The position numbers and the translations under genes were made by a program. This document shows positions 7,858 to 49,662 of a DNA stretch of 64,000 nucleotides, piece after piece (the first letter of the stretch is position 1; every line of letters starts with the position of its first letter). Under the pieces are notes generated by a model. It was not told where the DNA came from. It did no database searches and saw only the letters and a list, made by a program, of their open reading frames with translations. Source of the DNA: Spirogloea muscicola. Lineage: Eukaryota; Streptophyta; Zygnematophyceae; Spirogloeales; Spirogloeaceae. The stretch spans positions 110,834 to 174,833 of the forward strand of contig WELB01000134.1 of the NCBI GenBank assembly GCA_009602725.1, read 5' to 3'.

Positions 7858-7960
7858 AACGAGAGAAGCAAGGCCACGTTGACTGGTGGCTGGGAGAGGC
7901 CAGCCCAAAGGAATGGACAAGATCTGAAGGAGCCGGAGTGCTACAAGCAAACAGCCGGCA
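7858..7960 (-). mobile_element. Non-LTR subfamily A 3' end (hairpin only)
   Basis: Only the last ~90 nt of the element: hairpin ggctgggagaggccagcc (7885-7902), the flank gaatggacaagatctgaagg and the terminus with gttgactggt. No protein-coding part remains. Confidence 0.6.
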
Positions 7961-9984: not shown

Positions 9985-10786
9985 TAGCTAATAAGGATCA
10001 CTTCTCTGTCGTAGTTTTGTCCTTCCGTGCTAAGCAACACAGCCGGAGCAGTGCCAGCAACAGGAGGAGAAGGACAACAACGGCCCCAACAACAATGCCG
10101 GCAATGCCCCCCCTGATAAGCTCGACGACTTGTGCTCCGGAGATAGTGGGGAAGGAGGAGGAGAACGAGGTGGGGGAGCTGTCTTGCAGGCCACGTAAGG
10201 GCCGCCACACAAGTCGCCATTGCCAGAGAAGGAGCTGCTGTTGTGGTGACCAATAGAACCGCCAGGAATGGGCCCACTGAGGTTGTTATTTGAGATGTTA
10301 AAGAAGAGATTAAGAGTCAAATTAGCAAAGGACGCCGGGATGCTGCCATTGAGATTGTTGTTGGAATAATCAAGATAGGTGAGACTCGGCAAGTTGCCAA
10401 TACGCTCCGGTAAGGGCCCGCTGAATGAGTTGCTTGCTGCTGTAAAACTGATGAGCTTGCTCAATTCTCCAATTTCCGAGGGGAGACTGCCAGTTAGGCC
10501 GTTGTTGGAGATGTCAAGATCTCGAAGATCTTGCAGACTCCGAATGCTCGCAGGTACTCCTCCGGTCAATTTGTTGTGAGCTAGGTAGATAGCCAACGCA
10601 TTGCTTAGGTTGCCAAGCCACTCGGGGACTGGGCCAGATAGATTCTTATTTTCCATCACCAGTGATTGCAAGTTCTCCAGGTTGGAGAAGGTTGTCGGGA
10701 TCGGTCCAAAGAGCTTGTTGTCACCAAGCCAGAGTGCATTGAGCAGCACAAGTCTCCCCAACTGAGGTGGCACAAGGCCAGTTAAT
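9985..10786 (-). pseudogene. LRR receptor ectodomain plus membrane segment, kinase lost (copy 2)
   Basis: One exon (start at the acceptor before 10786) encodes seven consecutive 24-residue LRRs, the stalk with GALCGG-like GDLCGGPYVACKT, a proline-rich linker and the membrane helix, closely matching 1829-2420 of copy 1. A single-base frameshift falls at the start of the membrane segment: the helix (GGIAGIVVGAVVVLLLLLL) is in a different frame from the LRRs. The frame then stops (DKTTTEK, stop near 9986) exactly where copy 1 continues into its juxtamembrane region, so the kinase is missing. Here the LRRs are fused in one exon, whereas copy 1 keeps several as separate 72-nt exons. Confidence 0.75.
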
Positions 10787-11030
10787 CTGCCAGTAAGTGT
10801 GAGTGAGCCGCTAAGAATGCCAGCTGTGCCTCTTCTGCAATTTATGTACCTGCTGACATGGCAAATCAGGCAACGTATAGCTGCATCGGAGATGCAGTCA
10901 CAGCTCAGCAGCTGTTGAAGCTCAGGTCCACACTGATCAACCCCCTGCAATCAGCGAGCTCTGGTGGCACTCAACCCTCCAAGCTGACACCAAACAAGCA
11001 TTAGACAGGCGGTGAGTTGACACCGATAGT

Positions 11031-12237: not shown

Positions 12238-13600
12238 GGCTGTTGTTGTCCTCTTCCATTTGTTGCTGGGACTTCTCCTGCTGTGTTGCTGTGCTCGGAC
12301 GAAGGAAAAATCTATGACACACAAGGAGCGGAGCATTGAGAGCTGCTGCTCCGAGATGTCCATCACTCAGGATAGTTTCCAAGCTCCCTTCACCTACGAG
12401 GAGCTCATGGTTGCAACGAAGTTGAAGTATTGCCTTCAACGACAATCACATTGTTGGCAGAAACGGCTTCGGGAAAGTCTATGGGTACGTACATTCCCTG
12501 CTTGCAAGCGGTATGTTATTCTTGGTGCTTGTGTCCAGGTCATTTTCTTCTCCTATGGCTCTTTCAAATCCTTTGGCAACCTTTTGCTACGATGCAAAAC
12601 GCTGAGCAGTGCGCAGCTGAAGGACCGGCAAAAGTATGCAGCGAAGAAGCTAGCGCCAGAAAACAGGCAAGGACTGAGATCGGTGAAAGCTGAGGTGGAG
12701 GTATTGAGTCGCATTCATCACCACAATCTGGTCCCGCTACGGGGCTGGTACATTCCTAAGGAGAGCGACGTGGACATGCTGCTCATCCATTCATTCTTGC
12801 CAGGAGGAAATCCTGACCAATTGGTGCACAGGGGGAATGCGTGCCTTTAAAGCCAGAAGGGTTTGATCACTGGGCTGCACGTAAGAAGGCCTCGTTGGGT
12901 GCAGCAGTTGGACTCAAGTACCTGCATTACGAGTGCGAACCTCGGGTGCTGCATAGGGACGTCAACCCAAGCAACGCCTTGTTGGATGAACATGGTCAAG
13001 GGTACGTGGCGGATTATGGGTTTGAACGAACTTTCAGGCACATGACACGCACGTGTCAACCATGGCTGCAGGTTACTTTCGATGCCCTCCAATGTCCTTT
13101 GAGCTGTATTGTAGGCCTCTTTGGCATCGTGCAAGGAGGATGTGTTGACACATCCTGGTAAAGGCACCTCAGACTGCCTGGCAATGACTATGGCTCATCT
13201 TTCCTGCAAGTCAAGATGCGTGACGATGATGCACATGGGCAGGCACCAACGGGTACATCGGTCCAGACTGTGCCCTCGGCCAACTGACTACACACAGCAC
13301 TGTCTTCAACTTTGGAGTGATGGTTTTCGAGATTGTCACTAGCAAACGGCCTGTTAACACTTTCTTTCAAATCGAAGTTGCAACTGGTGGCAACTTAATC
13401 TTGTGGGTGCGATCCTGCCTTCGCCACGAGAAGCCTTTGAAGTGTGATACTATGGTCCTAGCTCCATTCGTCCCCCAGAAAGTGGACTTGTGATTAAGGC
13501 TAATGAGCTGCTCCGATGTTCCAAAACAAAGGCCAACAATGCTTGACGTGGTTGAGATGCTCCAGAATCTCGGAGCATTTGGTGCTGGGTTGACACTTCA
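12238..13600 (+). pseudogene. LRR receptor kinase relic: membrane segment plus kinase (copy 3)
   Basis: Begins inside the membrane helix (LLGLLLLCCCA) with no LRRs. Exons match copy 1: about 12,240-12,484, 12,610-13,071 and 13,243-13,592. Damage: an insertion near 12,420 shifts the frame just before the glycine loop; a 1-nt deletion near 12,838; a 1-nt deletion near 13,030; TGA at 13,491-13,493 followed by loss of the helix before the QRPTMLDVVEML motif. HRD is kept but the Lys after it is Asn (HRDVNPSN), and DFG is DYG. It starts exactly where the minus-strand LRR repeats end (12,237/12,238), so it looks like the missing kinase half of copy 2 after an inversion. Confidence 0.8.
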
Positions 13601-14504: not shown

Positions 14505-14880
14505 CGAGAAGCGCGGCCAGATTGACTGGTGGCTGGGAAAGGCCAGCCCAAAGGAATGGACAAGGTCTGAGGGAGCCTGAGTGCGGAGCTGGCGGCCCAC
14601 ATGCTCCGTTGTGCCCACGGCGGCGAGAGGACCGGATCCCATGACCTTCTCAGGGATGGCATGCAGGGTGTCTTCATCTAGGCGGGCTACAAGGTGGCCG
14701 TGGAGCACTCCTCGACAATACCCCCCGTGCGCGGCGCCGATGGTCAGCTCCACACCCGGCGCGCAGACCTAGTCGCCATCCCGCCCGGCGGCGGTCCGCG
14801 GATGTGGTGACCGCCGACTGTGTCGACTCCGCCAATCCCTCCAAGTCGGCGGTGTCATGCGCGAGGGCGTCTATGCGAGA
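14505..14880. mobile_element. Non-LTR subfamily A hairpin (-) abutting an endonuclease-region fragment (+)
   Basis: 14,508-14,582 is a minus-strand 3' end (hairpin ggctgggaaaggccagcc). From 14,584 the plus strand encodes the zinc-knuckle and endonuclease-like segment of a LINE: ELAAHMLRCAHGGERTGSHD, RRADLVAIPPGGGPR, with an in-frame stop near 14,680 and a break before the expected DVVTTD motif. This fragment adjoins the 3'-truncated end of the neighbouring Ty3/gypsy element. Confidence 0.55.
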
Positions 14881-15041
14881 TGGCGTCGATTGGCCGATAT
14901 AGAGACAGATGCTGACGTATACGAGCTATGTGATACACAACCAAACAAGAATGCGGTTGCGCTGGCCATGCCAACAAAAAGGCAGTCCGTCGAGAGGCCA
15001 TTGTCACCAATCGTTCATCTCATAATTCTTGTGAGGTCGCA

Positions 15042-16574
15042 TCAACTGGTTGTTTTGCCAAACATATCTTCTAGCTCTGTGCTTGATGCAATCCTTCTGG
15101 ATGGTAGTAGTATTGGGTAGGTAGGTCCCAGTCTGAAGATGATGTAGAACTGGAACATCCAACCATACATCTTTTGAAAAGAACTATCATCAGGAGCATC
15201 AATAGCACAAGCCAATGGAGAATACTTGGCGAAGCGAGCCAAATAAGAAGCAGGATTGCTGGGAAGCACAGGAACAGTGGCAATAGACATCAGAGCAAAA
15301 TGATCATCTACAGTTGTTGGAATGGGGTGGCGACTGAGGGCATCCGCATCCAGATTTTGAAGCCCTGGCTTATGAATGATGTCAAAGTCGTATTCCTGCA
15401 ACCGTAACGCCCAGCGAGCCAATTTACCAGTCAGATTGGTAGAGGTCATCAACCATTTCAAAGGTTGATGATCTGTAAACAGTGTAAATCGACGACCAAT
15501 TTAATAAGGCCTAAAATGTGTAATAGCCCAAACAGCTGCAAGGCATTCGCCGTCATATGCCGAGTAGTTTTGTTGAGCAGCATTGTTAGAACGACTAGCA
15601 AATGCAATGACGTAACCATGGTGTTTCTCATCCTGCTGTTTAAGTACAGCTCCCATGCCGAGTTTACTCCAATCTGTCTGCAACTGGAAGTCTTTGGCAT
15701 AGCTAGGACGACGCAATACAGGAGCAGTTGTCAGTGATTTCTTCAACTGACAAAAAGCGTTTTCCTGCTCGGAACCCCAAAGCCATTGCTTGTTTTTGTG
15801 AAGTAGGTTATTCAGAGGACGAGCCAGAGAGCTAAAATGCTCAAAATACCGATGGTAGAAGCTGGCAAGTCCTAAAAAAGATCTCAAAGATGTAAGATTC
15901 GTTGGAGCAGGAATGGATAGAATTGCCTGCACCTTACTTGTTTGAGGAGAAAGTCCATTTTCCGTGATGTTATGACCAAGGTACGAAACTTCAGGAAGCG
16001 CAAACCGGCATCTCTCAGGGTGGCACTTCAAGCCTGAAGTTTGTATCAGTTTTAGTACACAGTCAATGTGAGTCACATGTTCAGCAAACTCATGACTGAA
16101 AACCAAAACGTCATCAATGTAACATCGAGAAAACGATACCCCTTTCAGCACTTGATCCATTGCACGTTGGAACATAGAAGGAGCATTTTTCAACCCGAAC
16201 GGCATTTTCACCCATTGGAACAGTTGGTCAACACCCCAGAAGGCCGTCTTGTGACGGTCGCACGGCTCAATCTCGATTTGATTGAAACCCTGTCTCAAAT
16301 CCAGAACAGAAAAGTTCTTAGCGGAACCTATATGATTTATAATTTCTTCAGGCGTCGGCATTGGATATCTATCAAGTGGCGTATTGGCATTCAAAAGACG
16401 ATAGTCACCACACATACGCCGGTCTGTGTAATTTCCGTGCTCATCCTTTTTGGCTGGAAGCACAGTGGGAGCTGCAAAAGAGCTATTAGAAGGCTCAATC
16501 ATACCAATTGTCAGCAATTCTTGACAACGTTTGTGTACAAAGTCATCTTCAAAAGGAGATAGAGTATACCGTCT
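15042..16574 (-). pseudogene. Reverse transcriptase and RNase H of the same retrotransposon
   Basis: In frame with the methyltransferase segment, directly after the TGA at 16,575: RRYTLSPFEDDFVHKRCQEL, then the RT palm with DLRQGFNQI, MPFGLKNAPSMFQ, the catalytic YIDDVLVFS (nt ~16,121-16,107), the LGH..T thumb motif and the SLRSFLGLASFYHRY connection. RNase H follows (TDWSKLGMGAVL, then TDHQPLKWL), broken by TAA at 15,501-15,503. After DADALSRHP the frame ends at 15,042 with no integrase. All catalytic residues of the polymerase are present, but the copy cannot make a full polyprotein without readthrough. Confidence 0.85.
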
Positions 16575-19500
16575 TCAGAAGATTGGTTTGTCATTGTTGA
16601 GGTCAATCTTGAACTTGGCACCCTGAAAAGTACCCAAGTCAGTTGCTGAAAAAGCAAAACATGCAATTTTGTTCTGCAGCATTCGGATCAATTGTTGCTT
16701 TTGCCTGGCATGCAGTTTGGAACCAAGATGCCAGTCATAGGTAGCAGATAAATTAAAAACAACAAGTGATACAAAAGGTAATTGGTACGTTTGCAGAATT
16801 GTTTCGTCTGTTTCATCGTCAGAGCCTCCAAGGAGGGGAGCGTCAAAGATACTCAGTATACGATTGTTCAAGTCCGTAAGTGGCGTAGTGCCATCCATGC
16901 AATCTATCCACCTGCAGTGAGCCTGTATGCAATGTATCACGCTAGATAGCCAGGTGATAGCATTCAAGTCAAAGGCCTGACCTATGAGGCAATTCTTGGT
17001 GACATCAGAAAAGTGAGAAGGGGTGATGTCACCGGGGTAAAAACCCATGCATTTCTCACGCTCCCGTGGTGTAGGAGCCTCATACTGGTCGGAGCCCCCC
17101 GACTTGATCAAAATCATGCCTTGCCCAACAGCTCCTCGGTTGGAAACTCGAAAAGCTGCAGACTTGTCAGTGGCCACAAAGGTTGGCAATGTGCGCTGAT
17201 AATGACCAGCCTTGTTGAGTGGGTGTCCTGTAACAAACCGTGGAACCGCTGGAGTTTTCCTCCAAGCATCAAGGATCAGATCAACCCGTGTTGCATTTGG
17301 AGGGTGTTGTCCGTCTATGCAAGCCTGGAGAAGAACTGCGGGCGCCAAGTTCGTCCAGAACAGGCGGGTCCTATCGGCTAGAGAACCTACCCTAGCAGCA
17401 TCGAGTGTTACACAAGGTCCCAAAATGTGGAACACCCTGCGAAAATCATACATCGCCTGCCTCTTGTCATTGGCAGGTCCTACATTCTCTAGAATATAAC
17501 CCATGTATCTTTTCTGCCTACTACGAATATGCAGCAGTATCTTGATCATGGGGAAATATAATGCAGAATTTGGATGATCAAAACCTCGACCTGATCCTGC
17601 ATTGCTAAAGCCTTCACAAGGAAAGCCAGCAATGACTAGGTCAATTTCAGGAAGTTTGCTGAGATGGTCTGACGTAATGTCCCTGATGTTGCCGGGCAGT
17701 GTTGTAGCCCAGCCCTGAAAGGTTGCATCCGAAAGGAGATGCGAGTACCTCTTTTTCAGAATTTGGATATGGTGGGAAGCTGCCTCACGGGCCTCCGGAT
17801 CGTTGTCAATGTATATGTAGTTGGCAATCCGGTACCGGCTGCGGAGGAGACCTGCGAGACCAGTGGCGGAGCCTGCAAATAACTCCAACACCGTAAGTCC
17901 TTCCTCAGGAATATCGAAGGGGATGACCCCTTCGTAGAAGCGTTGATCTTGGGCTGGGCCTGCATTGGTCCCAGGATCATATAAACTAGTTTCAAAAACT
18001 TTGGAGGACCAGGCCTCCTTCACGTGAAGGGACGCTGTACGGCTCCAGTCTGGCAGCATGGCCAGGTACTTTCGGTAGTTCTCCTCCACAAGCATACCCT
18101 CGAAATCCTCTTCAGCGAAACCATCTGTCTTTAGGCACTTGCGCAACACAGAAGGTTCAGAGTTATAATCCGAGTTATCTCCTGAAGAACCCCTCTTCTG
18201 GTGAATGACCACCGGGACCTCTCCTTTCCCTTTGCCTGTAACAGGTGGTAATAAGGGAACATGATCAGTTAAGGCTGACTCATTGGAATCTGGTATGCCA
18301 GCATGGACTTGTAGTCCAGCGTGAGACTGGTTCTTAAGGAGTAATAACACTGTGTTAGTACCAGAATTCTTCCAGTCTGGCCTATACCAAGCTTTCTCTG
18401 AGTAAAAATCCATACCAAATCCTAGCGGAACTAGGAATTTGGTTCCTAACAAAACATCGTAAGTGTCTGCTTTTGTGATCATACAAATAACAGACAATGA
18501 TGTCTTCTTCGAAGGTATATTAGCATATAGGGTAATGCAAGGGGGTTTCCTTGTTAACCCTATGATACTATCAGTCCCACCAGCTGCAGTCTTGATTTTC
18601 AAGTTGCTGCGAACAATATCTCCAGCCTGCAGGTGCAATTTACCAATCATGCTGCGACCCAGGAGTACTGGCTGGGCACCTGTGTCAATGAGTACAGAAG
18701 GTGGTGCAGTACCTTTCACGGTCAGAATGCCTTCGGCATTGTCGAGGAAAGTAGCTGACGAGAATTTCTTCTGCCTCTCTTCTGCTGATCTGCATGGAAG
18801 AGAACCAGGACCAGATAGATCTGGGTTCGCTTTAGCAGAATTCATGGTCGGAACAGCTGCAACTTGAACCGTAGGAGAGTTGTCAGTACCAGAGCTATTC
18901 AGTAGTGTAGCACACAATCTCTCCTTTGTCCAACCTAGCTCATGTAAGCTGAACACCGGTGTTCTATGCAGCTTAGTCAGAAGAACGTCCTTGGACAACT
19001 GGCAATTGGTAGGAGCCACATCATCTGAAGCTATTCGGGCTTTAGGCAGACGAGGCTCATTGGTCAGTGTAACGTCCTTGACTTTAAAACTTGCAGCGTA
19101 ACGTGCATTCCCTGCACGTGCTGCCTTTTGCAAGTTAGTTTCGCCCCTTTTGAGGGGATTCCTGCTGACAACAGTTGGTTCAGGGGCAGTGGCAGCAATA
19201 ACAGCAAGGTGTGAGTAATCATACTCGTTTGCTGTCCCATCGAGGTCTTCTTCAACATCGTCGTGGTTCGCTTGAGCAACTGCAGCTGCAGCCAACTTGG
19301 CTCGAGTTTTAGCCTCGGCCTCATAAATAGCCAAATTCTGTGTCAGCCGTGCAACATCCTGTTCCAGTCTATTCATATTAGATTGGTCAGTATGAACGGC
19401 GTGATCTTTAGAAGGACCCTGGCCACTCCCGTCCTTAGCTCGAAACTGAGCTGGAAGTTTCTCTGGATTCGTTTTCCAACATTGTGTATCACTATGACCC

Positions 19501-19997
19501 AACCTTCCACAAAAACCACATGTGGCACCAGCAGTCTGGTGTAATGCAGCACAGTTCCTTTTTATATGACCAGGCTTACCACAATTGTGGCAAGTGATAG
19601 AAGGACGCTGTTGATACTGCTTAGAGGCTTGAGTCATTGTGTGAGACATATCAGGTAGAGCCACATGAGCTCTGGTGTTACCTGATAGAGATTTCTTAAC
19701 GACAGTGTCTTTCTCGTCCCTCCTGTCCTTGTCAGAAGTTGACGAACCTGAGAAACGATCATCAAGATTTTTAAGTGCGAAGTCGGCAGACTCCTTCTCA
19801 AGCATGACCTGGAAAACATCGGCCAGGTCAAAATGAGGCTTGTGGAGTTGCCGCGTCTGCATCAACAGTAAGTTCAGAACATGGTGCATGGCTTTCCCAG
19901 ACACAACCCGAAGGAACTGATTTGCTAAGTCTTGCGAACTGATGCTTGTCCGCGACTTCTCTATAAGAGTGGTGTACCGATGATAGCATGCGGTCAC
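16575..19997 (-). CDS. Gag-protease-DNA methyltransferase segment of the retrotransposon polyprotein (1,140 codons open)
   Basis: Residue numbers count from 19,997. Gag helices, incl. a Retrotrans_gag-like stretch (1-70); CCHC knuckles at 136-149 and 160-173; coiled-coil-like helix (207-245); aspartic protease with VLIDTGAQPVLLG (D-T-G at 438-440, nt ~18,686); C5-cytosine methyltransferase at about 699-1026 (nt ~17,903-16,920). Methyltransferase motifs seen: I LELFAGSATGL, II IDND, IV GFPCEGFSNAG with catalytic Cys at nt 17,616-17,618, VI ENV, VIII RVGSLADRTRLFWTNL, IX TPREREKCMGF, X LIGQAFDLN. The enzyme would add methyl groups to cytosine in DNA, possibly the element's own cDNA. The tail (1095-1140) leads into the reverse transcriptase, from which it is separated by one TGA in the same frame. 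The listed start is only the first codon after a stop, not a true initiation site. Confidence 0.88.
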   Translation of the reverse strand: MTACYHRYTTLIEKSRTSISSQDLANQFLRVVSGKAMHHVLNLLLMQTRQLHKPHFDLADVFQVMLEKESADFALKNLDDRFSGSSTSDKDRRDEKDTVVKKSLSGNTRAHVALPDMSHTMTQASKQYQQRPSITCHNCGKPGHIKRNCAALHQTAGATCGFCGRLGHSDTQCWKTNPEKLPAQFRAKDGSGQGPSKDHAVHTDQSNMNRLEQDVARLTQNLAIYEAEAKTRAKLAAAAVAQANHDDVEEDLDGTANEYDYSHLAVIAATAPEPTVVSRNPLKRGETNLQKAARAGNARYAASFKVKDVTLTNEPRLPKARIASDDVAPTNCQLSKDVLLTKLHRTPVFSLHELGWTKERLCATLLNSSGTDNSPTVQVAAVPTMNSAKANPDLSGPGSLPCRSAEERQKKFSSATFLDNAEGILTVKGTAPPSVLIDTGAQPVLLGRSMIGKLHLQAGDIVRSNLKIKTAAGGTDSIIGLTRKPPCITLYANIPSKKTSLSVICMITKADTYDVLLGTKFLVPLGFGMDFYSEKAWYRPDWKNSGTNTVLLLLKNQSHAGLQVHAGIPDSNESALTDHVPLLPPVTGKGKGEVPVVIHQKRGSSGDNSDYNSEPSVLRKCLKTDGFAEEDFEGMLVEENYRKYLAMLPDWSRTASLHVKEAWSSKVFETSLYDPGTNAGPAQDQRFYEGVIPFDIPEEGLTVLELFAGSATGLAGLLRSRYRIANYIYIDNDPEAREAASHHIQILKKRYSHLLSDATFQGWATTLPGNIRDITSDHLSKLPEIDLVIAGFPCEGFSNAGSGRGFDHPNSALYFPMIKILLHIRSRQKRYMGYILENVGPANDKRQAMYDFRRVFHILGPCVTLDAARVGSLADRTRLFWTNLAPAVLLQACIDGQHPPNATRVDLILDAWRKTPAVPRFVTGHPLNKAGHYQRTLPTFVATDKSAAFRVSNRGAVGQGMILIKSGGSDQYEAPTPREREKCMGFYPGDITPSHFSDVTKNCLIGQAFDLNAITWLSSVIHCIQAHCRWIDCMDGTTPLTDLNNRILSIFDAPLLGGSDDETDETILQTYQLPFVSLVVFNLSATYDWHLGSKLHARQKQQLIRMLQNKIACFAFSATDLGTFQGAKFKIDLNNDKPIF

Positions 19998-20036
19998 CGT
20001 TTCACCTTCAAGACGTCTGAACTTATATAACTCTTG

Positions 20037-20375
20037 TTAGCAATGCATGACATTCTCCGGAAATTGTTTAGACATGCGTTTGATCATCTCTTCGACAGGA
20101 TCCTCAATCAAACTAGGACCTGCCGCGATCTCTGCTGACGTAGCCGTCAAGGATAGAGGTGTTCTAAGGTCTAACACTTCTTGTTTAGTCCTTCTGTACA
20201 CAGCTCCGGCAGCACCAGTAAATTATTTGGCAAACAAGGTCATTCTCTGACCTCGACCAACCACGAAACCCTGTACGTCTAACTCACAGAGTTCTGCCAC
20301 GAAATGGTCTCTGACTTCTTCCAAAGAAGACCCGTCAGGCATGCCCGAGAATCTCGGACGATCACCTGAAGCCAT
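20037..20375 (-). pseudogene. Retrotransposon gag, N-terminal part with two stop codons
   Basis: Starts at ATG 20,373-20,375 (MASGDRPRFSGMPDG), in the same frame as the downstream polyprotein. Two TAA codons interrupt it (20,223-20,225 and 20,037-20,039). The sequence after the second stop (QELYKFRRLEGETVTACYHR) continues without a break into the large open frame. Capsid-like by position; residues upstream of the ATG are lost in the gap. Confidence 0.7.
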
Positions 20376-20386
20376 GTGTGTACGTC

Positions 20387-20891
20387 NNNNNNNNNNNNNN
20401 NNNNNNNNNNNNNNNNNNNNNNNNNNNNNNNNNNNNNNNNNNNNNNNNNNNNNNNNNNNNNNNNNNNNNNNNNNNNNNNNNNNNNNNNNNNNNNNNNNNN
20501 NNNNNNNNNNNNNNNNNNNNNNNNNNNNNNNNNNNNNNNNNNNNNNNNNNNNNNNNNNNNNNNNNNNNNNNNNNNNNNNNNNNNNNNNNNNNNNNNNNNN
20601 NNNNNNNNNNNNNNNNNNNNNNNNNNNNNNNNNNNNNNNNNNNNNNNNNNNNNNNNNNNNNNNNNNNNNNNNNNNNNNNNNNNNNNNNNNNNNNNNNNNN
20701 NNNNNNNNNNNNNNNNNNNNNNNNNNNNNNNNNNNNNNNNNNNNNNNNNNNNNNNNNNNNNNNNNNNNNNNNNNNNNNNNNNNNNNNNNNNNNNNNNNNN
20801 NNNNNNNNNNNNNNNNNNNNNNNNNNNNNNNNNNNNNNNNNNNNNNNNNNNNNNNNNNNNNNNNNNNNNNNNNNNNNNNNNNNNNNNNNNN
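20387..20891. other. Assembly gap (N)
   Basis: About 505 N. It hides the junction between the retrotransposon's 5' side (presumably its LTR and leader) and the LINE copy that resumes at 20,892. Long frames running through it are artefacts. Confidence 0.99.
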
Positions 20892-21163
20892 GCCTGGCCG
20901 TCTCGCTGCAGAGGTCCATGGCCCGGGCGCTGCACCTTCGTGCCGGCAGAGCCCTCGCTGCTGCCTCTGGCTCTGGCCAGGGGACCCACTTCCAGGAGCC
21001 CAGCATCTCTGATCTGCGGCTGCTTAGCAGGGGTTACTGAGTGTCTCGTAGCAGCTTTGTTTCTGTTACTTAGCGCTTCCCCTGGCCCCCTTCTCGTACT
21101 CTGTTCATTCTTTTTCGGGCTGGTTGCTCCAGCCCCTATTCTCAATGGGCGAGCACTTTCTTC
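20892..21163 (+). mobile_element. Non-LTR element, subfamily B, 3' end
   Basis: The plus strand encodes the typical C-terminus (LAVSLQRSMARALHLRAGRA, then a frameshift, ending GY-stop at about 21,040). The 3' UTR follows with the cttagcgcttcccctggccc box, the hairpin gggctggttgctccagcccc (21,118-21,137) and ctcaatgggcgagcactttc. The foldback element begins at its very end. Confidence 0.7.
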
Positions 21164-22160
21164 AAGCCGAGCAGTCCGCTCGGCAAGCTTCACCCTCCTG
21201 CCCACGCCTGCGCCACCCGCACCGGTGTCCGCGCCTGCGCCCAGAGAGCGTAGCGCGTAGAGCATACGGCAGACGGCCCCGCGCCTGCATCCACGCCTGC
21301 ACTCAGAGAGCGTAGCGCGTAGAGCATACCGCAGGCGGCAGCTAGTGTAACTTAGCCTGGACCCGCGTACGACTGCGTGAAGTCTCCGTGACACTGCGGT
21401 AAGCAGTTGCTAATCTTGCCATATCTTTATATGAGGCAAGGTGCTGCACTTGGTGCCTGCGCGTATATCCTTGCATGCTTGCATTGGTGCATTGGGTCAC
21501 AAAAGCCGCGGTTCGGACTATTTGTTACAAAAGTCGCGGTTCGGACTATTTGTTACAAAAGTAGCGGTTCGGACTATTTGTTACAAAAGTCGCGGTTCGG
21601 ACTATTAGTTACAAAAGTCGCGGTTCGGACTATTTGTCACAAAAGCCGAGCCCGCTCGGCAAGCGAAGCGGTACAGAACGAACTCGGTCTTGCAACTCGG
21701 GCTCGGCTTTTGTGACAGATAGTCCGAACCGCGACTTTTGTAACTAATAGTCCGAACCGCGACTTTTGTAACAAATAGTCCGAACCGCGACTTTTGTAAC
21801 AAATAGTCCGAACCGCGGCTTTTGTGACCCAATGCACCAATGCAAGCATGCAAGGATATACGCGCAGGCACCAAGTGCAGCACCTTGCCTCAATATAAAG
21901 ATATGGCAAGATTAGCAACTGCTTACCGCAGTGTCACGGAGACTTCACGCAGTCGTACGCGGGTCCAGGCTAAGGTACACTAGCTGCCATCTGCCGTATG
22001 CTCTACGCGCTACGCTCTCGAGTGCAGGCGTGGACGCAGGCGCGGGGCCGTCTGCCGTATGCTCTACGCGCTACGCTCTCTGGGCGCAGGCGCGGACACC
22101 GGTGCGGGTGGCGCAGGCGTGGGCAGGAGGGTGAAGCTTGCCGAGCGGACTGCTCGGCTT
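21164..22160. mobile_element. Foldback-type element with ~490-bp inverted arms and internal 28-bp repeats
   Basis: Left end aagccgagcagtccgctcgg (21,164) returns as its reverse complement ending at 22,160. The two arms match through almost their whole length around a ~45-nt centre near 21,680. The inner part of each arm is made of 28-bp direct repeats (core cggttcggactatttgttac): five full units on the left, four on the right. The outer part has a second, longer direct repeat (gagcgtagcgcgtagagcat twice). No transposase, no clear target-site duplication. Long inverted repeats built from tandem subrepeats are the hallmark of foldback (FB-like) transposons; a local palindromic duplication is the alternative. 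Confidence 0.75.
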
Positions 22161-22164
22161 GGGG

Positions 22165-22615
22165 TGCCCGCTTGGGCTCGGGACGGGCGCTGCGGCGGCC
22201 GCTGGCCCTGGCCGGCAGGGCATCGTGAAGATCCGAACGCTGCCTAATAGGCCAGGTTTGGCTGTGGCGACGCTGGTTGGCTAAGTTGGGTGACGGGCTT
22301 GGTGTGGGCCAACCACATGACCCATGGGCAATCAGCCCCCGGGTGGTGACCTCCAGCCGTCCGTTCCACAATCGGATGGTGGTCGTCGCGCGTGGGCTCG
22401 GGCCCTTGCCGTCGCGTTGTCGTTGTCGTTCCGCCCATGTTGTTGTCGTCGCTCCGTCGCGTTGGTGTCGCGTTGTCGTTGGGGTTGAGTTGGTTGAGCG
22501 GTTGCCTTGATTTCCGGCTGGAAGAGGTTTTCCATCCCCGACTCCGTTTCACATCTGGAACGCGTGACTCAGCCGTAGGACGCGTGTCAAGCCAGGTCAA
22601 CTGTCCTAGTCAGAT
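22165..22615. repeat. GTC-rich low-complexity tract in unassigned sequence
   Basis: Between 22,410 and 22,500 the sequence cycles through gtcgcgttgtcgttgtcgtt-like words. Flanks show no gene. Open frames here simply follow the triplet bias. Confidence 0.5.
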
Positions 22616-22619
22616 CGAC

Positions 22620-23200
22620 ACAAATAAGCAGTCGACGGGATATCGCACGACAGCGGCGACCGCTGCGCATGCGGTCGCTTTGGCGGCCCGGGGCAAGGAG
22701 CGGAAGTATGCAGATCAACCCCCAGGCGATGAGTTCGCGGCCCTTGCCATAGACGTCCACGGGGCTTATGGCAGCGGCTGGCTGGATCTTCTCCAGCGGC
22801 TTGCCCGGCAGGCCATGGAGCGGCGGCCGGATCCGCCAGGGGGCTGCCCGGCTTCAACGCGGCCGGCTCCCTGGCCCAGGTCTTCCGGATGCGGCTCTCC
22901 GTGTCCCTTCAACGCTCCCTCGCTCATGCCGTCCACTCGCGCGCGGGCCGTGCTCTTGTTGCTTCTTCCGGGTCTCGTCTGCCTGCATCTTTTCCAGCTT
23001 CGAGCTACTCTGACCTGATGTTGCTCACACGCGGGTATTGAGCTTCCTGTGGTTTTGTCATGTCTAGTTGTCTAGCTGCCTAGCTGTGTGTTTCCCTTCT
23101 TTTCGGCACCTGTTGTAGCTCTTTGGACTTTGTCCATTCTTTTTTGGCTGGCTTCTGCCAGTCCCTCTCTTCTATGGGCGAGCTCATTCTTCTGAACGAC
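22620..23200 (+). mobile_element. Non-LTR element, 5'-truncated copy
   Basis: Plus-strand code: GKERKYADQPPGDEFAALAI, DVHGAYGSGWLDLLQRLARQ, then frameshifts before the C-terminal tail, which ends LLTRGY-like at 23,040. The 3' UTR carries the hairpin ggctggcttctgccag (23,147-23,162) and cttctatgggcgagctcatt. Confidence 0.65.
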
Positions 23201-39910: not shown

Positions 39911-40310
39911 TCAGCCGAAGGGGAAGCGCGGCACTGGGAGGATGAATCGGCTCCGCGGGAGCGCCTGCGCCACAATAGGCCCCACTGCCGCGGCTCTGAC
40001 CATCGTCCTGGCCTGCGACAGCTCTCGCCTCGCCCACACCTCCGCCCGCGATAGCCGACAGCCTCTCAATCCCCACAGCAGATTGCCAGTCAGCGAGGCA
40101 GCATGCGCGGCCCAGCGTCTCTCTAAATCGCAGGCGCAGGTACTTCGTATTCGCCTGTCCATATCCCTCAAGCTCCTTGATCACTCGGGGGTATTAGTCC
40201 CCCTTAGCCAGCTCATCACCCAGTTAAAAGGACATTTGTAAGGCTAGGTTTTGCCTCCCTTTTCATTTCATGCGCACCGCGCGCCTTCTCTCCAGCGGTC
40301 CATGGTCCAC
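39911..40310 (+). mobile_element. Subfamily E remnant
   Basis: Plus-strand tail QRLSKSQAQVLRIRLSISLK (about 40,112-40,170) followed by the subfamily E UTR: ccccttagccagctcatcac, cagttaaaaggacatttgta, ggctaggttttgcctccctt, tttcatgcgcaccgcgcgcc. Confidence 0.55.
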
Positions 40311-41105
40311 GCCTGCGTGCTGGCCGTGCTCCAGCTGCAGCCACTCGCTTTCGTCAGGGGACTGCTTCCGGCGGCCAGTTTTCTGACTTGCGGCTGCTTA
40401 GTAGAGCTCAATAAGTGATTCTCCTGCATGGTACGTGCTTAGTAGTGTGTTTCAGCACTTTTCGGCTCCTTGGGGCCTTATCAATTCACTTCGGGCTGGC
40501 TTTTCACATGCTGACTTCGTTATGCGCTTCAGCAGATTTGCAGCCACCTGGGACCTTGTCAATACTTTCCGTGCTGGCCACCTTCAGAAGAGCTCACTTC
40601 ATTATCAGAGATTGAATCATATTTCCTCTCCTCATATCTTCGCTCTGTCAGCTTGCTCTTGCCTCATTCATTCTCTACGCCAATGCGCATTCACACGCAG
40701 TCACTTTACTTGCCATCATTTCATTTTCACCACTGTGTCGACCATATTTATGTTTCTAAATCACACCTGTTTTTGCCACTACAGGACGGGCAAAGCTCCA
40801 TTACACTCCACTGACCACAATGCTACTGGGACGCTGATGGGACGCTGCCCAGCCTTAGTGTTGGCCTGTTGAGCTGGGCTATTCGTTAGTACCCAATTAG
40901 GGCTAACCGAAAGCCCAGGACCTGGAGCATTACCGTCGTCACTCAGGTGGGGCTCGAGCGATGGAGAAGCGGCGCTCTTGGAGGGAGTGCCGCGCTCCTT
41001 CCTCGCCTTCTTGCCCATGGCGGTGACGGCGGCAGGGTCCGGCAGGAAGCAGGCCGGCAGCTAACGCAAGGCAGGTGGTGTGGGCGCTGGCAAGCAAGCA
41101 GCAGT
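40310..41105. other. LINE remnants and a third R4 block; otherwise unassigned
   Basis: 40,300-40,480 contains a short decayed (+) tail and UTR; a weak hairpin lies at 40,495. R4 is at 40,690-40,860 (ctgaccacaatgctactggg). 40,860-41,105 shows nothing recognisable. Confidence 0.4.
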
Positions 41106-47600: not shown

Positions 47601-48527
47601 TGTGATGTCACCCAAGAACCTCTTGAGGCATCCATTGTGCAAGTCGGATCTGACTGAGTTTGACGACACTGGAGGGCACGTGGGTTCTGATAAGCAAGGC
47701 ACAAGGTTCAAGAGACTCATCAAAGATAGTCACACTCACTCTGCCACAGAAGAGGGTATACGACGGGTAGTCTTTTGCTCTGGCAAGGTAAGTCGTAGTC
47801 TTCTGCGAGGAGTTATGCATCTTCCAGAAGTAGCAGTGCATTGTCATTGTCTTAGAGCCAATCTGGATCTCCCAGTGGCCAGATATATTTGTATTAAGAT
47901 GTTGTGCTGACAAAGGTTGACCTTTTCCCCGTGCTCCAGGTATACTATGAGTTGGACGAGATGAGGCAGAAACTGGAAGCAGAGGATGTCGCACTTCTGC
48001 GTGTGGAGCAGCTCTGCCCCTTGCCATACGACCTATTCATGCGCGAGCTGAAGCGTTACCCAAGTGATCTTGACTTACTTCCCTCTGCTTGTGGCTTGCT
48101 TAGCATTTTGTGGTTATCAATGCTTCTGCTAAAATTGAGCAGTTTGTTTACACAAATGAATCTTCTCCATTAGTAGTGCCTTTATTCAGATCAGGCACGT
48201 ACGCTTACCAGCCATGTCTGCTGTCAATGGTCACTGCTGCTCAGCATGCAACTCTTACCAGACTCATCACACCTGTTACTTTAATGTGTGATTGCAGATG
48301 CGGAAGTTGTCTGGACTCAGGAGGAGCCAATGAACATGGGTGCATGGAGTTATATTGCTCCTCGCATGGCCACTGCCATGAGGGCCACTGGACGTGGCGC
48401 ATACGAGGACCTGAAGTACATCGGAAGGCCTCCATCGGCTTCAACAGCCACAGGCTTTGCTGCCCAGCACAAAGAGGAGCAGAAGGAGCTGGTAATCAAG
48501 ACCTTCCAGAAAGAGGAGATTATGTGA
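41623..48527 (+). CDS. OGDH: 2-oxoglutarate dehydrogenase E1 component, mitochondrial (18 exons, 1,051 aa)
   Basis: Thiamine-diphosphate E1 subunit that decarboxylates 2-oxoglutarate in the TCA cycle. Exons: 41623-41856, 42061-42159, 42375-42457, 42805-43075, 43205-43258, 43843-44025, 44150-44321, 44473-44688, 44888-44976, 45134-45382, 45553-45779, 46094-46217, 46319-46527, 46746-46992, 47175-47303, 47572-47787, 47940-48063, 48298-48527; all GT/AG, phases continuous, no stop. Landmarks: Arg-rich presequence ending [38 protein letters not shown]; ThDP motif from HGDGSF (~residue 432) to VNNQ (~466); [45 protein letters not shown]-terminal ATGFAAQH. Length is close to plant E1 (~1,020 aa). The start exon is the weakest part: it holds an unknown base at 41,697 and its first 25 residues are proline-rich, so initiation could be elsewhere; its phase and presequence features fit exon 2. 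Confidence 0.95.
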
Positions 48528-49662
48528 TGATGGCTTCCTGCATTGTTTCTAGGGTCAAGAGAGCAGTACAATCCTGTACAGCAGAGCTGGAATGCCAGAC
48601 GGGTACATAGGAGGTCCATGCATGCATGCGATAAGTGTACATTGCTAGGCTTGGTTTATTGGAGATGCCTATTAAGGGAATGAAGACACTATCATATACA
48701 TCTGTGCACCAAGCAGCGTCGCCTGGATTATCAGCGTGGCACGCGAAGAGGCAGAATCTTCGTTGGCAAGCTTGCATGGTAGGACATGGTGGTCCATGGC
48801 TGCAAGTGTATGACGCTCTCGCCTGACAGCAGCTTGGTACTGGCACATTGTAGATGTGTAATGGGTATTGTATTTTTTTCTAATCACTGGTGGGGAGGAT
48901 AGAGGAAGTGTAGATACGAGCAGAATAGAAAGCCTTAATTTCATGAGATATTTGCAGATGAAATGAATGATCATGCCATTGTTGTTATAACAGCCTCTAG
49001 CAGATTTGTCAGATTGATGATGCGATATCTATATTGCATAGTAGTGCAAGCCTCTTTGTGTTTGTCTCTTAATGTTAAGCTTAGTAGCCTGACAGCACAA
49101 TTGACAAAGTTCGTCTGCAATACCTAATTGCCTTGTATCTTGATTTCTACTTCTATTCATGATAACTCCAATATGAATAAAAGTTTCCGCTTTAATTTTC
49201 TGCTAGATTATCTTTCTTATTTCTTATTTCCTCAAGGTGTGCCAGTCTTTATCTCATGACTTTTGCACAACTTACTCAGTCAAAGATTTGGAGTAAAAGC
49301 AGTCTGACCTTTGTATGTCGGCTTCACAAACCAAGGCCTTGTGATGTGTGGGGCACTCGTCTGCCTGGTGTGGTCTACTGTCCTGCACTACTTGCCTGGG
49401 CTGGCGAAGTATGGGAGTCTGTAGAGGCCAGCATGCAGCATGTGTGGCAAACTTGCACGGTCAAAAATGACATGTATAAGGTTTTGCTAATAGGGCTCAA
49501 GCGGCGCGCCAATTGCACCTTCTAAGGAGTATGTCACCTATGCTAAGTAGACACAATCTACCCACATTGAATTCATGATGGAAGGAGCGTATAGGACTAC
49601 TGTTAGCACTAAATCAATGACGGTCGAGGTGACCGAGGATAAGAGTAGTGGCCCCCACTGCT
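48528..49662. other. Convergent intergenic region (OGDH and USP 3' flanks)
   Basis: AT-richer than the coding parts. A possible poly(A) signal, aataaa, lies at about 49,176, ~650 bp after the OGDH stop. No gene or shared repeat found. Confidence 0.4.

Follow-up and report, generated by a model that had tools for sequence, protein, structure and literature searches.

Why should a genomic parasite carry an enzyme used for silencing it, and where in its life cycle does that enzyme act? This question is raised by a retrotransposon on the minus strand of a 64,000-nucleotide stretch of the Spirogloea muscicola genome (contig WELB01000134.1, C134:110834-174833; hereafter the window), in which a C5-cytosine DNA methyltransferase (DNMT) domain is embedded in the polyprotein. 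By sequence comparison with the 153-Mb, 471-contig assembly in which all genome searches were conducted, the element is a decayed member of a multi-copy, DNMT3-bearing Ty3/gypsy family, of the same kind as KnitGypsy-Dnmt3 of Klebsormidium nitens (de Mendoza et al. 2018, PMC5890265). Methylation of the element's own complementary DNA (cDNA) would be the most likely role of the enzyme, at a probability slightly better than even.

An original prediction, made from the letters of the window alone, had placed gag, two CCHC knuckles, a DTG protease, the methyltransferase and the reverse transcriptase (RT) in one frame between positions 16575 and 20375. Pfam matches and the reading frame bear out this order, with Gag, both knuckles, protease (PR), C5 methyltransferase, RT and RNase H following one another in a single minus-strand frame; Gag to DNMT indeed lie between those positions, but RT lies outside them, RT and RNase H together occupying 15042-16574. 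The frame is the same throughout, but it is broken by four in-frame stops (20223-20225 and 20037-20039 in gag, 16575-16577 just before RT, and 15501-15503 in RNase H) before it terminates at 15042-15044. The integrase and everything behind it have been deleted, and this copy is dead. Its features are the following.

14853..22652, minus strand: whole element copy in the A-coding-B form, 7.8 kb, decayed, with TG (22652)...CA (14853) ends
22653..22656: target-site duplication CCGC, 5' side of the element
14849..14852: target-site duplication CCGC, 3' side of the element
22565..22652, minus strand: terminal repeat A, the still recognisable part, 77% to the C328 copy
20387..20891: assembly gap, a 505-base N run, between the A region and gag
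18720..20375, minus strand: gag region, ATG at 20375, two in-frame stops near the start
19551..19595, minus strand: first CCHC zinc knuckle (PF00098, E 2.6e-5)
19479..19523, minus strand: second CCHC knuckle (weak model match, motif recognised by eye)
18432..18719, minus strand: aspartic protease, DTG motif (PF13975, E 6e-4, short of the curated cut-off)
16887..17939, minus strand: DNMT3-type C5-cytosine methyltransferase domain, extent approximate (PF00145)
17616..17618, minus strand: presumed catalytic cysteine codon, motif IV FPC (invariant in 10 aligned copies)
16779..16787, minus strand: place of the leaky stop; in this copy a sense codon, then CAA TTA
15501..16574, minus strand: RT and start of RNase H (PF00078, 2.7e-26; PF17919, 1.9e-30)
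15042..15500, minus strand: end of RNase H and a remnant of the following stretch; integrase and PHD finger missing
14853..14916, minus strand: terminal repeat B, recognisable last 64 bases, 80% to C328

A tandem array of 28-base units also lies within the 5' region of the element, at 21468-21645.

A hidden Markov model search, one of the checks proposed beforehand, recovered the methyltransferase domain as a PF00145 match (E 5.3e-13). As to the class of METHYLTRANSFERASE, a profile built from ten copies found DNMT3A as its best match among PDB chains (1.6e-10), followed by DNMT3B, M.HaeIII (1.2e-9), M.HhaI (8.5e-9), DRM2 (3.5e-4) and DNMT2 (0.07), and no chain named DNMT1 or chromomethylase was present among the 54 PDB profile matches at 0.1 or better. 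When the window sequence was searched alone, without the profile, M.HaeIII ranked first. For the predicted fold (mean predicted local distance difference test, pLDDT, 74; predicted template modelling score, pTM, 0.77), the best 50 of 189 matches at E<=0.001 were all DNMT3 structures (top E 1.9e-16), the top match having a template modelling (TM) score of 0.79 for the target and 0.58 for the query. By profile and by predicted fold, the domain is closest to DNMT3. The residues FPC and ENV, which we take to be methyltransferase motifs IV and VI, are invariant across ten aligned copies. The median ratio of nonsynonymous to synonymous divergence (dN/dS) was 0.165 for DNMT (16 unsaturated pairs of 153), compared with 0.117 for RT (16 of 91) and 0.245 for PR (12 of 91). 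Among the pairs listed, DNMT pairs with dS >0.4 gave 0.14-0.20, the window and C351 copies yielding 0.15 at dS 0.56, and several very recent pairs reached 0.6-0.8, as expected for dead copies. Judged by these ratios, the DNMT domain is under purifying selection, like that of KnitGypsy-Dnmt3, for which a Ka/Ks < 0.2 was reported (PMC5890265).

A genome search for copies with the same domain order, likewise proposed beforehand, found the order PR-linker-DNMT-linker-RT kept in copies on many contigs. Genome-wide, 107 scored DNMT matches were detected at 31-100% identity, several in long open frames, and this number is a lower bound, scored out of 288 candidates; the protease is 35-90% identical to that of other copies over the matched stretches only. 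RT matches at >=50% identity mark 40 loci, and at 30 of these a DNMT match lies within 6 kb on either strand. The original prediction had named copies lacking the domain as evidence against it, and these counts put that to the test. Three of the ten RT loci without a nearby DNMT match were opened, of which C18 has the DNMT in pieces, C445 is truncated with no element part found upstream of RT, and C36 (L088, C36:885100-889200; RT 50% identity, weak CCHC gag matches) shows no DNMT over 4.1 kb upstream of its RT and may be the nearest DNMT-free relative. At the more distant gypsy RT loci (36-41%), a DNMT match was found within 6 kb at 1 of 67, on the opposite strand.

The linker between DNMT and RT could be read at 16 loci, with one further locus (L036) dropped as too broken. 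In 15 of the 16, a stop codon (11 TAG, 4 TGA) stands at one shared place in the linker, with CAA directly 3' of it in all 15 and the complete CARYYA in all except C341 and C246. In plant viruses, efficient readthrough has the consensus UAG-CAR-YYA, which works with UGA too (PMC3542737). The conserved stop with CARYYA is, on this pattern, a predicted programmed readthrough signal, resembling the tobamovirus type in carrying the exact hexamer in 13 of 15 stop-bearing copies and differing from it in its location between a methyltransferase and RT and in the use of UGA in 4 of 15 (PMC3542737). This leaky stop divides ORF1 (open reading frame 1; Gag-CCHC-PR-DNMT) from ORF2 (RT-RNaseH-integrase-PHD) in the same frame, and as it stands behind Gag, PR and DNMT, the DNMT would be made at the level of Gag.

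What the window copy has lost can be read in the C2 copy (C2:495394-504063), where Gag to DNMT in one frame is followed by the stop and then by RT, RNaseH and integrase in the same frame. Pfam matches to H2C2 (2.9e-14), rve (1.4e-11) and a C-terminal PHD finger (5e-10) were obtained, and the Ty3/gypsy order PR-RT-RNaseH-integrase is present. PHD matches were found at 11 loci, some of them broken. The solved relatives of the integrase PHD are the PHD fingers of MLL3, KMT2D, CHD4, ATXR5, PHF21A and UHRF1, and we infer that the integrase tip may serve as a histone-tail reader.

In the proposed sequence of events, a minority of ribosomes would read through the leaky stop, so that DNMT would be produced in amounts matching Gag and be incorporated into the particle. 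Inside the particle the enzyme would methylate CpG in the new double-stranded cDNA, and each cDNA copy would enter the nucleus already marked, as self or shielded, with the PHD finger on the integrase reading histone tails and steering insertion. The placement of DNMT in the Gag reading unit via the leaky stop favours self-methylation of cDNA over a free enzyme in the nucleus. In addition, methylation of cDNA was already proposed for DIRS elements by the authors of the 2018 study, who found de novo CG methylation in yeast by two SymbioDIRS DNMT3 domains (PMC5890265).

Several observations weigh against this proposal. The KnitGypsy-Dnmt3 domain gave no methylation in yeast, where human DNMT3B failed too and the authors regarded the outcome as inconclusive (PMC5890265), and because of this result our confidence in cDNA methylation was lowered a little, to just above even. 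The profile alignment to DNMT3A spans only positions 99-280 of 393, and DNMT diverges faster than RT, the C2 and window copies being 59% identical in the former and 86% in the latter. CpG is only mildly depleted in the element (0.58 vs 0.70 in the rest of the window), with TG+CA hardly raised (1.28 vs 1.26). The window copy is dead and is the sole one of the 16 with a sense codon at the place of the stop, CAA TTA standing behind it. The genome also contains many gypsy elements in which no DNMT was detected.

Among the alternatives, the one that survives best, unlikely as we consider it, is that the DNMT acts in trans in the nucleus, on the host insertion site or on competing elements, and not on cDNA. 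A DNMT3-type enzyme and an integrase PHD finger, through which the element may already interact with chromatin, are in keeping with such an action, but the DNMT is read with Gag and protease before the leaky stop, pointing to the particle, and Pfam showed no additional targeting domain in the ORF. A shade less probable again is some other job in the particle, such as RNA methylation or nucleic-acid binding, with little DNA methylation. The SymbioLINE and KnitGypsy DNMT domains were both without methylation in yeast, which the authors held inconclusive (PMC5890265), and the query TM of the fold match is only 0.58; set against this, the residues of motifs IV and VI are invariant, and DNMT2, a tRNA methyltransferase, matches the profile far less well (0.07) than DNMT3A does (1.6e-10). 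It is quite improbable that a captured gene is drifting here as a functionless passenger, since the pairs at dS >0.4 have dN/dS of 0.14-0.20 (among the pairs listed), long open frames occur in divergent subfamilies and the recoding signal behind DNMT is kept, even though many copies are broken and several recent pairs have dN/dS of 0.6-0.8. Fusion of a host gene to the element by assembly error, which the original prediction had itself named as its possible undoing and to which the 505-base gap upstream of gag might lend colour, is dismissed as vanishingly improbable, since that gap lies outside the PR-DNMT-RT join and the same order is found on many contigs.

The terminal repeats bear on the manner in which the cDNA is inserted. 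Matching direct-order long terminal repeats (LTRs) at both ends, the usual mark of Ty3/gypsy elements, were not found; instead, split direct repeats of the DIRS kind are present in C328 and C65. The C328 copy (C328:39994-48765) has an A-coding-B-A-B arrangement (A1 39994-40382; B1 47953-48161; A2-B2 48161-48765), with identities of 96.2% between A1 and A2 and 98.6% between B1 and B2. The C65 copy has the same arrangement, of its A1 only the first half having been found, and the C2 and window copies have the A-coding-B form. Because its ends have these arrangements and not matching direct-order LTRs, the element is a variant of Ty3/gypsy. Around the C2 copy, a search for direct LTRs recovered no pair; a 251-bp repeat near that copy (82%) overlaps a leucine-rich-repeat (LRR)-like reading frame and was discounted. 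TG...CA ends and identical 4-base flanks were present in 9 of 9 copies with both ends read, comprising four with coding sequence (C328, C65, C2 and the window) and five A-B units without it (C137, C384, C274, C370 and C52), and these ends and 4-bp duplications argue for an integrase-type insertion.

The two kinds of joint between the repeats behave differently. Inner B|A joints, searched for with 0-8 bases allowed between B and A and in addition with a looser search, read GACA-GC-TGTC in 5 of 5 (C328, C65, C16, C2:710k and C17). The exact 14-base inner-joint pattern occurs at 24 genome sites (27 rows). Ten of these sites follow closely behind an integrase match, among them C16:1213711, C26, C46, C142 and C341 at 0.2-1.4 kb, and most of the remaining sites have no integrase match nearby; a GACAGCTGTCGTGC site at C36 lies ~2 kb upstream of RT. 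With one mismatch allowed, 122 sites were found, compared with 37 when the pattern was reversed. In C328, C2 and C65, B1 is immediately preceded by a G-rich tract, and in C17, C157, C2:710k and C16 a G10 run comes after the PHD, a placement not seen in C330, C30, C38:63k and the C27 fragment. As the tract lies directly before B1, reverse transcription should define the LTR as B-GC-A. At the outer joints, 18 B starts were read, eight of which follow an A end (C137, C384, C237, C274, C14, C289, C328 and C65). All eight of these A|B joints are distinct, with nearly constant bases on either side; three carry G runs or GGA, resembling the tract before B1, and in the one at C14 (L074, C14:697580-697710) the beginning of the internal region is present as an inverted copy, like a fold-back product of a cDNA end. 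The other ten B starts follow a G-rich tract (C370, C240, C127, C2:532), other sequence (C52, C35, C19, C2:433, C65:687) or Ns (C87).

The 4-bp duplications and the variable A|B joints look as if integrase had cut end-joined, probably circular, cDNA at a palindrome internal to the LTR. In such a model, the ends of an ordinary gypsy cDNA (B-GC-A...B-GC-A) would be joined, as a circle or a concatemer, and integrase would cut both strands of the palindrome GACA-GC-TGTC within the LTR, each behind CA and with overhangs of 2 bases, and then insert the product. A 2-LTR circle would yield A-coding-B-A-B with a fresh A|B joint, and a 1-LTR circle would yield A-coding-B, the form of the C2 and window copies, for which recombination between B1 and B2 would be an alternative source. 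The use of joined cDNA ends by integrase was once proposed for retroviruses and then set aside. Foamy-virus integrase cuts the 2-LTR-circle palindrome in vitro, behind CA on both strands and with 2-base 5' overhangs like those of normal end processing, a geometry that fits CA-GC-TG (PMC1180852); the foamy-virus palindrome forms on joining of LTR ends, whereas the one here would be a built-in part of the LTR. HIV-1 integrase likewise cuts its own 2-LTR junction (PMC1905944). The form A-B-A-coding-B, which would arise from a 2-LTR circle cut at the other palindrome, was not seen among the five coding copies whose 5' ends were read.

The A-B-A-B arrangement might instead be regenerated as in DIRS elements, with both ends of a linear cDNA being copied from the inner B-A; DIRS elements employ a tyrosine recombinase and are not known to make a target duplication. 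The repeat plan is the same as that of DIRS elements (PMC5890265) and the inner junction is constant, but this model predicts a constant, inherited outer A|B joint, and 8 of 8 differ, three of them with bases like the end of a polypurine tract, leaving us to regard it as rather unlikely. A tyrosine recombinase is moreover contradicted by the 4-bp duplications and the rve integrase, and DIRS-type integration by such an enzyme was rejected on these grounds. As for priming, Tf1-type self-priming offers a comparison. In C2, the first 15 bases of the internal region, directly behind A1, form a perfect complement to a stretch within A (maximum of 10 in 1000 shuffles), and this presumed self-primer stretch is also found within A2 of C65. 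The likeness does not extend to C328, both A repeats of which are without ~655 bases found in C2 and C65, the stretch included, or to C351, where no complement of >=11 bases was found between the pre-gag region and A. A single template seems to have served both A repeats of C328.

The DNMT segment also occurs in inverted repeats. An opposite-strand DNMT match within 2.5 kb accompanies 32 of the 107 DNMT matches, at 12 loci (L032, L004, L015, L035, L024 and L091-L097), compared with 0 of 50 RT matches and 3 of 102 integrase matches, the latter at one locus. Inverted repeats are present at 12 of 12 loci with 87-99% identity overall, ranging over 112-base arms at C35, 1330-base arms (99%) at C268 and a 2.2-kb palindrome at C66, and they derive from several subfamilies with differing breakpoints. 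It is possible that these repeats act as silencing hairpins; they may also have a mechanical origin. Mu killer of maize, which silences its own element and consists of part of a transposase gene duplicated in inverted orientation (PMC3440606), is alike in duplicating part of a mobile element's enzyme gene, but here the duplicated part is the DNMT, at twelve loci.

Some observations concern the surroundings of the element and other gypsy elements. LRR-like and kinase-like frames, recognised by eye, adjoin the element at window positions 10030-10950 and 12239-12850, and the C2 copy likewise adjoins an LRR-like frame. Short dispersed repeats (7863-7941, 14506-14584 and others in the window) are present at further genome loci, and no tRNAs were found in the window. 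The genome gave 68 chlorophyll a/b-binding matches, which mark it as that of a photosynthetic eukaryote; one of them has chlorophyll-binding antenna chains as its PDB matches. A search for the RuBisCO large subunit gave no match. Elsewhere in the genome, ten gypsy RT matches of near-equal score were noted (C70, C80, C225, C294, C33, C170, C235, C412, C267), nine of them in 1237-aa open frames with no DNMT match nearby, and this group is probably a recently active family.

The capture of DNMTs by retrotransposons is already known, as is this kind of element, and the precedent named in the original prediction proved real and close. KnitGypsy-Dnmt3, compared here by its published description only, is alike in combining a gypsy Pol with a DNMT3-type methyltransferase, in being intronless and multi-copy, and in having A-coding-B-A-B repeats in a DIRS arrangement; its DNMT was reported inside the Pol polyprotein ORF, whereas here the DNMT ends ORF1 before the leaky stop (PMC5890265). 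SymbioDIRS-Dnmt3 of Symbiodinium also has a DNMT3 in a retrotransposon polyprotein and A-coding-B-A-B repeats, but with a tyrosine recombinase in place of the DDE integrase and a different RT class (PMC5890265). In the main text of that paper the words PHD and readthrough are absent, and target-site duplications appear only for a long interspersed nuclear element (LINE). Literature searches on PHD-tipped gypsy integrases, split repeats with an integrase, readthrough in retrotransposons and later DNMT-bearing gypsy elements yielded nothing closer than this paper among the papers listed, and related papers checked for PHD held only a reference to PHD in CR1 LINEs. The leaky stop, the PHD finger, the 4-bp duplications with variable joints and the DNMT inverted repeats look new, as no earlier description was found, for the 2018 paper in its main text.

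Taken jointly, integration of end-joined, probably circular, cDNA at a fixed LTR palindrome, a DNMT made at Gag level, a PHD-tipped integrase and DNMT hairpin loci suggesting an arms race over the methyltransferase form a reading that we put forward tentatively, at somewhat less than an even chance. By tying DNMT to Gag, the leaky stop would turn the puzzle of the enzyme's place of action into a concrete and testable claim, namely that it is a particle component acting on cDNA. The terminal repeats provide a naturally occurring example of what looks like the use of joined cDNA ends by a DDE integrase. Finally, the inverted repeats centred on DNMT suggest that hosts may target the DNMT gene in particular.

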